A stretch of DNA of 64,000 nucleotides. Source: Acidobacteriota bacterium. Lineage in GTDB: Bacteria > Acidobacteriota > Polarisedimenticolia > J045. Location: NCBI GenBank assembly GCA_030949985.1, contig JAUZRX010000021.1, forward strand, positions 1 through 64,000. The letters run 5' to 3'. The notes under the pieces were generated by a model that saw only the letters and a program-made list of their open reading frames with translations, ran no database searches and was not told where the DNA came from. How positions within the stretch are numbered: position 1 is the stretch's first letter; every line of letters starts with the position of its first letter. Position numbers and translations under genes: made by a program. This document shows, piece after piece, positions 46,072-51,119 of this stretch.

Positions 46072-47274
46072 TCAGCCGAGAAGCTGGAGGGCGTGGGGCA
46101 GCCGGGAGGCGATGTCGATGCCCTGGGGACAGGCGCGGGAGGCGGCGACGAGGTCGGCCTCCCGGATCTCCCGACCCGCCGGCCGCAACTCCCGGAACAG
46201 GCGCCTGGCCTTGGCGGTTTCCCCATAGCACTCGTGGTACATCAGCACGCGCAGGGTGTCGGCGATCGGCACCTTGCCCCCCGCCGCCGGCTCACAGTGC
46301 CGCGAGCACCCTTCGCAGGTCCAGGGGGCGGTGGCGGTGGCCAGGCGCTGAAGCTGCTGGAACTCCTCCATCGACAATTGCCGGGGGGAACGGGCGGCAG
46401 CCACGTTCTCGGCGAGTTTCCTGGTGTTGTCCATGTGAGAAACCACGGCGTCGATGCGCTCGTCGGCCCACACCGCCTTGAGCTTGGCCTGGGGCAGAGT
46501 GAAATGCCGGGACTTGAAGCCGATCACCTGCTCCGCATCGGCGGGCACGGACTTCTGGGTCTTCATCGCGATCAGGCCGATTCCTTTCTTGCGGCAGGCG
46601 TCGATGGCCCGATTGAGAGCCAGATCGCCGTATTTGCCGAAGTGGTAGCGGAACATGATCGCATCGACACCCCCCACCCGAGCCGCCTTCTCCATCAACT
46701 CCACCACCCGGTCGCCGTGACAGGAAAAGCCGAAAAAACGCGTCTTGCCGCTCTTGCGCAGCCGATCACCCGCCTCCAGGCAGGGCCGGTCGAGAGCCCT
46801 GGCATCGTCGACGGCATGCATGAAGAAAAGATCGAGGTGATCCACCTCTAGCTGTTCGAGGCAGGTGTCGATACCCGTCTCGTACTCCGCCGGATCATAG
46901 CCGCGGGATACCACCTTGGAGGTGATCCACAGCTTGTCCTTCCCGCCGACCTGCTTGATGAACGGGGCGATGGTCTTGTGGGACATGCCATCCTCGTAAG
47001 CCAGGGCGGTATCCAGGTAGTCCACTCCCGCCTGGTAGGCGCGATGGAGAATCTTGTCGTACCTGGGATCGAAACGCTGGGCGCAACCCAGCAGAAGGAT
47101 CGGAATCTTCGCCCCCGTGGCCCCCAGTTCCCGCCGCGGCACCTTCGGGTGATCGGCGGGGGTGGAGGCCCCCCCGGCACCCAGCGCCGCGGACCCCGCG
47201 AAAGTCAGACCGGCGCCGCCCGCGACCGCAGCCTTGATGAATCCACGTCTGCTCGTACCTTCTGTCTTGCTCAT
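46072..47274 (-). CDS. Tat-exported aldo/keto reductase with C-terminal Fe-S motif
   Basis: This 400-residue protein starts with a twin-arginine signal ([19 protein letters not shown]). The aldo/keto reductase barrel follows, with catalytic Asp and Tyr in [11 protein letters not shown], the Lys in ITSKVVSRG and the His in LFFMHAVDD. The C-terminal tail has CEGCSRHCE and, about 55 residues later, [10 protein letters not shown], a ferredoxin-like 4Fe-4S ligand set. GGAGG precedes the ATG at 47274, which overlaps the polyferredoxin stop. NAD(P)H use outside the cytoplasm is doubtful, so electrons may instead come from the Fe-S proteins of this operon (inference). Confidence 0.87.
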
Positions 47275-48932
47275 CCTGGCCTCCTGCCGGGCCGGCGATG
47301 CTGCAGCAACAGTCGCCGGTGAGGGGAACGGGACTCGCCCACGGCGGTGACGTAAACCGCGGGGGAATCGGTGACGGGGCACTCGGCCTGGCAAATGCCG
47401 CAGCCGATGCACAGGTCGGGCACCATGAAGGGCTTGTTGAGCAGGACGATCCGCCCAAAGACGTCCTTGACCTCCTCGTCGACGGTCTGAATCGCCTTGG
47501 GAGAAACCGGACAGACCTCCTCGCAGACCACGCAGGGGATCTCCATGGCGTGGGGCAGACAGCGCCCCCTGTCGAAGAAGGCGGTTCCCAGGCGAATCGG
47601 CCCCTGCTCGACGTATGCCCCCTTGCCCAGCTTTTCTTCCACGGTGATGCGGCGGATCGCTCCGGTCGGGCAGACCTCGCTGCAAAGGGCGCACTTGAGC
47701 TGGCAGTGGGCGATGTTGAAATTCATCACCGGGGTCCACAGGCCCTCGACGCCGGCCTCGGCGAAGGTCGCGGGCTGGAGCACATTGGTCGGGCAGACGT
47801 TGATGCACTGATCGCACTTGATGCACTTTTCGAGAAAGAGGCTCTCTTCCACCGAACCCGGCGGCCGGATCAGCGCGGGAGAATAGTTGCGATCGTCGTC
47901 GACCCCGTGGCTGCGCAGGAAGGGATAGGCCAGCAGGCCGAGAATCGACGAGAAGACCACCTGCCGCCTGCCGATCTCCGGCCCGGGACGCACCTGCTTG
48001 GCGTCCAGCCGAAGCATCGAGAAGCGCAGCGCATCCTCGGGACAATCATCCAGGCAGTTCATGCAGGCAAAGCATTCGCTCAGGCGCAGCTCCGCCTGGG
48101 GATCGGCGGCGCCTTCGCAGCGGGACATGCAGACGTTGCAGTCGGTGCAGCGATGCACGTCCCGATCGATACGAAACAGGGCGAAGCGTGCGGTGACGCC
48201 CAGCAACGCGCCGAGGGGACACAGGACCCGGCAAAAGAACCGGGGAACGACCACGTTCAGGCCCACCAGGCCGACGAGCAACAGCCCGATCCAGAACGAA
48301 CCGACGAAGATGCGCCGCTCACTTCCCGGCGCGAACTTCAGGTGATCGAGCAGGGACGCCTCCAGGCCGAAGCCGCCGAGAAAACGGGTGATGCCATCGA
48401 GCAAGATGTCGGAGGCCGGGGCGAGGGCCGTGGCGAAGGTGCGATACATCAGGCAGATCGGATCGAGCAGGCCGATCTGCAGCGCCCCCAGGGCCGCCAG
48501 AATGAGGAAGACCAGCAGCAAGGCGTACTTCAGGTAGTAGATCGATCGGTAGCGATTGGAATGCCAGCGTTCCTTGTTTTTGCGCACGTTGAACAGCCAG
48601 CCGACGAACTGGTGCAGTGTGCCGTAAGGGCATATCCAGTTGCAGAACACGCGGCCGAACAGCAAGGTCAGCGCCACCACCACCAGGGCCCAGGGCAAAA
48701 AGCGGTAGAGAAAACCGGTCGACAGCACCGTGGACAACGCGACCAGCGGGTCCATCTCGAGCAATCGCGAAACCGGGTAGCCTCCCAAGCGGCTGGTCCA
48801 GGTGGCCCACACCGCCATCACGAAGGCCAGGAAGAAGAAGGCCTGGGAGACGATCCGCACGTTGGTCAGGCGCAGCAGGCGACGGACGGGCGGCGCCGGC
48901 TGGTAGACCGGCAGGCGGGGCAGATCGCTCAT
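47271..48932 (-). CDS. NapH/RdxA-like membrane polyferredoxin
   Basis: This 553-residue protein has about five membrane helices in the first 280 residues, with two CxxxCP motifs at their ends ([14 protein letters not shown] and [13 protein letters not shown]) as in NapH. A soluble half follows with many 4Fe-4S sites: [64 protein letters not shown] and [13 protein letters not shown]. It should carry electrons across the inner membrane. The final 20 or so residues are Arg-rich and unlike the rest. It overlaps both neighbouring genes by 4 bp. Confidence 0.9.
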
Positions 48933-49972: not shown

Positions 49973-51119
49973 CGGCAGCCTCCTGCATCCGCGCCAGCAG
50001 GGCGCGTGCGACGGCTCGATCCGCCGCGTGCTCGACACCGTAGAGTCGCGCCCCATCCCGGGCCAGGGCGAAGACCGTGCCCAGATAACGATGGCGGAGC
50101 AGGATGTCCTCCCCCGCCTGCTCGATCGGCTCGTACTCGGCGAGCTGCTCGGCCACCAGGCGCCGGTAGAGCGCCTCGGCCCGACCCGCGTCACGCGCCT
50201 GGTGAACGAAGATCCGCGCATCGCGACCGGCGCCGAGCTTCTCGAGCCCCGAGGCAAACCAGAAGTCCTCGAGAAAGTCATACTGAAAGACGTTCTCTTT
50301 CTGGTAGGAGACCGCCTCGAAAGGCAGGCCGAGGCGCCCGGTGAAAAACTCGACGATCTTCCCGTCCGGCTCCTGCCCGGACCGATCCACTTCGGCGAGC
50401 AGGCGGAGGACCTGCCGGGTCTTGGCCTCCACCAGGGGCCCGGGGGCGCTGGCCGCGATCCGGAAAAACAGGCCGCCACGCATGCCCAGCGCGCCCACGG
50501 AGGTCCGGGTGTAATGCACGCCCTGTTCGGAGAGCACCGGGGCGTCGGCGTTCCGTTGGCGGGCAAAGAGTCCCAGGGCATGGGCCGGCCGGCCCTGGTC
50601 GTAGAGTTCGATGGTCAGGAAGAGGGGACCGCGGGCCAGGGTCAAGTAGGTCAACCGGCGGAAATCGAAGGCCAGGTACTGCTCGGCGGCCCCGTTGATC
50701 TTCACGTAGAGATTCTCGGGAGTGTAGGTCTCCACCCGGCCATCGAGAGTCCAGCCACCTTCGAGCAGGGACGGGGGGAAGGGCCCGAGATCCACCGTGG
50801 GGGCCGCCGGAGTACCCGGGTCGACCCAGCGCCGGACAGGGCGCCGGTAGAGGGTGTCCGCCACACTCCCCTGCTGGAGGGTCTCGAAAGCGATGTCCCT
50901 CTCCGCCGGGTCGTAGGCCTCGGCGCGGGTCAGGATCCAGGCTCCGAAGACCAGCAGCGCCAACAGGGTCAGGCCACCGGCCATCGCCTCGGCACGGGTG
51001 ATCCGCCGCCGGAGGAGACGACGGGGGATGGGGTTGAAGACCCGCTGGGACTGGTCACGAGAAACCACGTCGATACCCGCAGCGGATTGTACCCGCAGTC
51101 GGTCGGCAAAGTCCGCCAC
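49962..51119 (-). CDS. DUF6599-like membrane-anchored protein
   Basis: This 385-residue protein has one membrane helix (about 43-63, AEAMAGGLTLLALLVFGAWI) and an extracytoplasmic domain with ENLYVKINGAAEQYLAFDFR, YDQGRPAHALGLFARQRNAD and GGLFFRIAAS. This matches the DUF6599 family, usually found beside DUF362 and polyferredoxin genes. It is the first gene of the redox operon. The GTG at 51119 is tentative: a promoter-like TTGAGC-N16-TAAAAA ends only 3 bp upstream, so translation could start later, for example nearer the membrane helix. Confidence 0.75.
   Translation of the reverse strand: MADFADRLRVQSAAGIDVVSRDQSQRVFNPIPRRLLRRRITRAEAMAGGLTLLALLVFGAWILTRAEAYDPAERDIAFETLQQGSVADTLYRRPVRRWVDPGTPAAPTVDLGPFPPSLLEGGWTLDGRVETYTPENLYVKINGAAEQYLAFDFRRLTYLTLARGPLFLTIELYDQGRPAHALGLFARQRNADAPVLSEQGVHYTRTSVGALGMRGGLFFRIAASAPGPLVEAKTRQVLRLLAEVDRSGQEPDGKIVEFFTGRLGLPFEAVSYQKENVFQYDFLEDFWFASGLEKLGAGRDARIFVHQARDAGRAEALYRRLVAEQLAEYEPIEQAGEDILLRHRYLGTVFALARDGARLYGVEHAADRAVARALLARMQEAAGGD

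Follow-up and report, generated by a model that had tools for sequence, protein, structure and literature searches.

A conserved four-gene operon of an Acidobacteriota bacterium as a candidate exported redox system around a LarA-like DUF362 protein

Introduction

Positions 46,072 to 51,119 of a 64,000-nucleotide stretch of an Acidobacteriota genome (contig JAUZRX010000021.1; the whole stretch is here called the window) carry four overlapping genes for a DUF6599 protein, a DUF362 protein, a polyferredoxin and an aldo/keto reductase (AKR). The question raised by this locus is what such proteins could do together. We give even chances to the answer that the operon encodes a quinone-linked redox complex, exported by twin-arginine translocation (Tat), around DUF362 as a LarA-like cofactor protein. 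The cofactor of LarA is the nickel-pincer nucleotide (NPN). Papers are cited by PMC number.

Results

Operon layout

The four genes, in the order of transcription, are as follows.

49962..51119, minus strand: DUF6599 gene, GTG start, 385 aa; one N-terminal membrane segment and predicted periplasmic tandem alpha/beta domains
48929..49972, minus strand: DUF362 gene, GTG start, 347 aa; fold predicted to be that of the LarA N-terminal cofactor domain
47271..48932, minus strand: polyferredoxin gene, ATG start, 553 aa; NapH-NapG fusion
46072..47274, minus strand: AKR gene, ATG start, 400 aa; predicted exported, iron-sulfur (Fe-S) type

Successive genes overlap by 11, 4 and 4 bp, just as an earlier interpretation made without database searches (the sequence-only reading) had described. 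The fixed stoichiometry deduced there from the overlaps was rejected, because relatives with the same gene order do not keep them. Pfam matches over the cut-off were obtained for DUF6599 (68.5 bits), DUF362 (PF04015, 142.1 bits against a cut-off of 24) and the AKR (82.7 bits).

Conservation of the module

Genome contigs were scanned for the polyferredoxin and the best 80 of 182 relatives were analysed as loci, so that the co-occurrence count concerns close relatives. Matches on the same strand were accepted from 35 bits upwards inside 6.5 kb, and a locus was regarded as testable where 5 kb or more precede and 1.5 kb or more follow the polyferredoxin. Rare co-occurrence of the four families would have refuted the sequence-only reading, but all four genes were found on one strand in 45 of the 46 testable loci (L140 being the sole exception) and in 64 of the 80 overall. 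DUF362 was present in 69/70 loci with 1.2 kb of upstream DNA, and DUF6599 in 60/61 with 2.6 kb. Loci L084, L114, L122, L128, L139, L148, L153 and L158, which showed no same-strand AKR, have too little DNA on one side and were left uncounted. The AKR gene is placed first in ten loci, mostly from Verrucomicrobia.

The complete module was also found at four of four more distant Verrucomicrobiota polyferredoxins, and by record titles it spans about 15 phylum-level names. It is thus widely conserved in many unrelated bacterial groups. Within the class of the window's bacterium, an AKR orthologue (61-100% identity) occurs in 10 of 41 genomes, its own included, and adjoins the polyferredoxin in all ten; the four-gene order is the same wherever the contig extends far enough.

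Fold and cofactor residues of DUF362

Two regions of this protein are relevant here.

49844..49918, minus strand: twin-arginine signal/anchor region, residues 19-43 (RR-x-F signal)
49217..49291, minus strand: His228-x9-Lys238-x13-His252, aligned with LarA His174, Lys184 and His200

DUF362 had been treated as an unknown by the sequence-only reading; instead, a predicted LarA fold, residues aligned with those that bind the LarA cofactor, and recurrent NPN-synthesis neighbours were found. An AlphaFold2 model built from 68 sequences had a mean pLDDT (predicted local distance difference test) of 90.5. All 12 of its Foldseek matches in the PDB at E<=0.001 are LarA-family NPN enzymes. In VIA comparisons, 11 LarA-family entries scored Z 14.7-17.3 and the next entry 5.5; the LarA-family alignments had a root mean square deviation (rmsd) of 2.8-3.3 over 205-210 residues, and run over model residues ~87-319 and LarA residues ~34-270.

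Profile alignment with hhalign pointed in the same direction. Two profiles of diverse DUF362 sequences were compared with LarA: one that covers 63 of 89 loci and was assembled irrespective of the motif scored 35.0, and the other, for which the motif was the criterion (85 of 89 loci), scored 44.7; among the controls, 100 LarA column shuffles reached 22.4 at most, and DUF362 scored 19.4 against the AKR and 15.7 against DUF6599. The alignment pairs His228, Lys238 and His252 with LarA His174, Lys184 and His200 (by sequence, not by superposed coordinates), and these residues are invariant in 75/75, 75/75 and 77/77 relatives with data. LarA binds NPN via R75, K184 and H200, and also uses D72, H108, H174 and K298 (PMC7583248). 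In the alignment of 68 rows, arginines R21 and R22 of the signal are fully conserved.

Searching the PDB by sequence with DUF362 returned no relative, and the Lar_N profile (PF09861) gave no match in the DUF362 protein, where DUF362 was the only family at E<=0.01. DUF362 and DUF2088 are placed in one Pfam clan, CL0471 (PMC11770544), so that the kinship of DUF362 and LarA was already known, and the residue match and gene context are what is new.

NPN-synthesis genes and LarA

LarC and LarA were searched genome-wide, LarB and LarE in neighbourhoods. Genes for LarB, LarC or LarE adjoin the module in 8 of the 80 loci, where 0.36 would be expected under random placement (P = 5e-4, calculated for about four groups, since the lineages are not independent). 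The eight Lar proteins checked, from L082, L091, L110 and L151, were all over the NCBIfam equivalog cut-offs. Three gammaproteobacterial loci (L109-L111) have the order larC-larE-larB-DUF6599-DUF362-polyferredoxin-AKR on the same strand, the L111 sequence being cut off short of larC. In L082 the AKR is followed by LarB, in L091 a LarE is found past the AKR, and larB-larC-larE is convergent with the module in L151, L154 and L155.

L275 (genome G359) holds a divergent set, DUF362-polyferredoxin-larB-larC-larE, with an internal twin-arginine helix in its polyferredoxin. The same locus encodes, divergent from this cluster (L275:11528-12754), a signal-less Fe-S AKR with two Cys clusters. Three Verrucomicrobiota loci (L272, L273 and L274) show DUF362-larB-larC-larE on one strand without a polyferredoxin; their DUF362 belongs to a different subtype (KGH...KN...H), whose signal is Tat-like or Sec-like.

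LarC was detected in 47 of 50 module genomes, and also in the window's genome, and LarA in 29 of 50. Twenty of the 50 have LarC without LarA, including G329 and G330, two of the three genomes with in-line larCEB; in the third, G328, a fragment of LarA adjoins larC. In Verrucomicrobiota, LarC was found in 178 of 287 genomes (G352 left out), and DUF362 in 69/80 LarC-positive versus 36/80 LarC-negative genomes (Fisher P = 5e-8, phylogeny uncorrected). Comparison of LarC with the module itself was rejected as a test both in this phylum, where the five polyferredoxin matches in 288 genomes, all LarC-positive, are too few, and in the window's class (LarC in 9/10 genomes with the module and 27/31 without).

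Of fourteen named control genomes, six contained LarC, five DUF362 and two LarA. LarC and DUF362 occur without LarA in Synechococcus elongatus and Haloferax volcanii, LarC with neither DUF362 nor LarA in Corynebacterium glutamicum and Methanocaldococcus jannaschii, and DUF362 without LarC in Bacteroides ihuae.

Another link between DUF362 and LarA was seen in the window's own genome, where a LarA homologue adjoins a second DUF362 protein of Tat/lipobox type (L277:4923-8884, contig G000:C42). The same pairing occurs in G071, G215, G223, G247 and G299.

Architecture of the polyferredoxin

The polyferredoxin consists of three parts.

48003..48932, minus strand: NapH-like membrane half, residues 1-310 (NapH/MauN model match)
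47913..47969, minus strand: internal twin-arginine helix, weakly hydrophobic, with Arg at its end, residues 322-340 (from the alignment; compare PMC5449189)
47346..47897, minus strand: NapG-like half, residues 346-529, with four [4Fe-4S] motifs, predicted periplasmic (NapG/MauM model match)

The NapH/MauN and NapG/MauM models match successive parts of the chain, both below the family cut-offs. The membrane half contains two CxxC-type clusters and two CxxxCP motifs, and the alignment shows four [4Fe-4S] motifs, with 16 Cys together, in the NapG-like half. The NapH-like protein with at least six Fe-S sites of the sequence-only reading is thereby borne out, with six CxxC-type [4Fe-4S] sites besides the CxxxCP pair. 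Its two Tat-type signals, on DUF362 and the AKR, also stand, but a third, the internal twin-arginine helix of the polyferredoxin, was overlooked. This twin arginine is kept between the two halves in 27/27 aligned sequences, and Arg or Lys closes the helix at position 340 in all 27. The helix falls under the hydropathy threshold that the other membrane segments pass.

Reporter fusions of the polyferredoxin of MLMS-1, termed a NapH-NapG fusion, need Sec and then Tat (Tooke 2017, PMC5449189). Since the internal twin-arginine helix corresponds to this dual-targeted architecture, we infer that the NapG-like half with its C-terminal clusters should face the periplasm.

Aldo/keto reductase

Two regions of the AKR stand out.

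47167..47274, minus strand: Tat signal region, residues 1-36 (TSRRGFIK), with conserved twin arginine
46129..46317, minus strand: C-terminal four-Cys motif, residues 320-382 (Cys320/323/327/382)

The signal motif SRRGFIK lies at residues 8-14, and its twin arginine is present in 57/57 sequences with an N-terminus. Both the tetrad and the C-terminal Cys motif had been noted before and are confirmed: Asp88/Tyr93/Lys120/His153 are kept in 59/59 aligned sequences, and the four Cys are in place, the third being shifted by one in Verrucomicrobia. That this enzyme is exported, carries Fe-S and works independently of NAD(P)H is only a prediction. The module AKR gene is present in two or three tandem copies in L085, L090 and L094, and in L130 it lies (11733-13004) ~4.4 kb downstream of the polyferredoxin, not adjoining it.

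DUF6599 and the rest of the window

A single hydrophobic segment was identified in DUF6599, in agreement with the one membrane-anchored product previously described.

50931..50987, minus strand: DUF6599 hydrophobic segment, residues 45-63 (hydropathy)

The DUF6599 model (pLDDT 89.1) has two alpha/beta domains resembling extracytoplasmic domains of Mog1/PsbP and RseB type. Foldseek with this model gave no match at E<=0.001. VIA placed residues 251-385 closest to 1vr8 (Z 11.4, rmsd 2.8, 116 residues), the PknH sensor being next (10.6), and residues 110-247 reached Z 8.2 (rmsd 3.1, 95 residues); in these models the likeness is one of shared arrangement or fold class only, and says nothing of function. 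Of 297 genomes from the phylum, 147 have the family, often in several and in up to six copies; it must therefore have roles outside the module, to which it is not exclusive.

A scan of the whole window gave no tRNA and no Rfam match. Over positions 24001-32000 the AT skew reaches 0.28 and 0.19, well in excess of the remaining window, and long minus-strand frames resembling membrane proteins lie there.

Discussion

Proposed mechanism

In the proposed complex, Lys238 of DUF362 would hold the NPN, His252 would bind the nickel and His228 would serve as acid/base; the protein would be exported in the folded state. Tat export suits proteins that are given their cofactors in the cytoplasm. The polyferredoxin, with a quinone-reactive NapH-type half and a NapG-type half that its internal Tat helix would bring to the periplasm, could pass single electrons between the quinone pool and both DUF362 and the exported [4Fe-4S] AKR, and the AKR would provide the substrate site that DUF362 is without. 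Outside the cytoplasm, a carbonyl or 2-hydroxy compound could be reduced or oxidised in a hydride-type reaction. Reduction, with electrons flowing from quinol through the NapH/NapG clusters, is a guess prompted by PMC5449189, where NapGH is called a quinol dehydrogenase. DUF6599 could be an anchored assembly or docking subunit, which is also a guess. The sequence-only reading is supported in part: the electron path that it put forward, leading out of the quinone pool towards an exported protein, fits the NapH-NapG architecture, but it put the AKR at the centre of the system, where the present proposal has DUF362.

A wider claim can be advanced only tentatively: that DUF362 is the missing second NPN protein family in genomes with larBCE and no larA, that the operon is the first exported NPN system coupled to a respiratory chain, and that NPN acts here as a redox-cycled hydride carrier rather than as the cofactor of a hidden-redox isomerase.

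Several observations weigh against a DUF362-centred NPN complex. No Lar gene was found in the flanking DNA examined at 72 of the 80 loci, and LarC does not track the module in the window's class. The absence of LarA could be a gap, since most of the genomes are metagenome-assembled. A profile comparison restricted to module members gave no relation to LarA (probability 0.1). LarA His108 faces a gap in the hhalign alignment, where His174 is the only catalytic His with a match, and the structural alignment stops at model residue 319 of 347, leaving the LarA C-terminal domain without a counterpart. For these two reasons DUF362 is not a LarA, although it may function as an NPN protein does. The K-x-H...K-N...H motif occurs throughout the family, also in DUF362 of LarC-negative genomes, so that the motif alone does not prove NPN binding and was rejected as such proof. 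Finally, the proposal would need one-electron clusters to exchange with a hydride cofactor without a flavin.

Alternative explanations

The direction could be the reverse, a periplasmic dehydrogenase oxidising its substrate and delivering electrons to the quinone pool. This would be compatible with NPN on DUF362, and the sequence does not fix the direction; however, the description of NapGH as a quinol dehydrogenase makes it doubtful.

Alternatively, the AKR could be the catalyst, with tightly held, co-exported NADP(H), DUF362 being a LarA-fold scaffold or docking protein without NPN and the Lar neighbours serving something else. There is a precedent in periplasmic glucose-fructose oxidoreductase, which is exported with tightly held NADP(H), and both the fully conserved tetrad and the motif-bearing DUF362 of 36 of the 80 LarC-negative genomes are consistent with it. 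The in-line larCEB genes, the DUF362-polyferredoxin-larBCE cluster and the module genomes that have LarC without LarA (20/50) argue for NPN on DUF362 instead, and make this explanation unlikely.

DUF362 could also racemise or epimerise an extracellular 2-hydroxy or sugar acid with NPN as its cofactor, with the AKR and the polyferredoxin acting separately on the same substrate. Characterised members of the LarA family are racemases or epimerases (PMC7583248, PMC11770544), DUF362 shares their fold and residues, and the evidence for electron transfer to DUF362 is indirect. However, DUF362 is without the second catalytic His and the C-terminal domain, and in L275 it is paired with a polyferredoxin even though the AKR nearby belongs to a different type, a link between DUF362 and electron transfer; a racemase is thus quite unlikely.

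Binding of a related but different cofactor (e.g. an NPN precursor or another nucleotide), with larBCE needed in some lineages only, would suit the motif-bearing DUF362 of LarC-negative genomes, but LarC in 47 of 50 module genomes renders it clearly improbable.

Significance

A literature search, with most subscription journals outside it, found no description of the operon or of DUF362 as an NPN protein, and nothing on DUF6599. PMC10892978 and PMC12423673 were rejected as DUF362 papers, since they concern longer DUF numbers. About 15% of surveyed genomes, cyanobacteria included, have larB, larE and larC but no larA, their NPN user being unknown (PMC11796402). DUF362, with its LarA fold, cofactor residues and in-line larBCE in some genomes, is a named candidate for this orphan role. 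If the NPN complex proposed here is correct, it would give NPN a net redox role in connection with respiration, and a module of about 15 phylum-level groups would receive its first function.

Comparison with known systems

The closest parallel to the polyferredoxin is Q1NSB0 of the delta proteobacterium MLMS-1 (PMC5449189), likewise a NapH-NapG fusion with four clusters after the last transmembrane domain, which is weakly hydrophobic, directly preceded by a twin arginine and followed by positive charge. Three cytoplasmic clusters are stated for Q1NSB0, whereas the membrane half of the window protein has two CxxC-type clusters and two CxxxCP motifs. The NapGH quinol dehydrogenase consists of the same two modules, but these are encoded by separate genes there and fused here, where the module is without a nitrate reductase gene. 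With Fe-S aldo/keto reductases the window AKR shares family, tetrad and C-terminal Cys motif, but it has a Tat signal and only four Cys, in two short segments.

The DUF362 protein has, as modelled, the N-terminal cofactor-domain fold of the LarA superfamily (PDB 5huq, 6c1w, 7s91, 9q3j), the three residues and, in some loci, larBCE neighbours. It differs in being without the C-terminal domain and His108, in its Tat signal and in its place beside a polyferredoxin and an AKR. The Npun_F2552 family (NCBIfam NF052623) matches it with E 1.4e-12, but its cut-off is 500 bits and the match reaches 47.6. PMC12611868 describes relatives of LarA that have a single catalytic His, and suggests partly reduced NPN in one of them. 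The orphan NPN user is expected in PMC11796402 to have a fold distinct from LarA, whereas DUF362 would provide a LarA-related fold instead.

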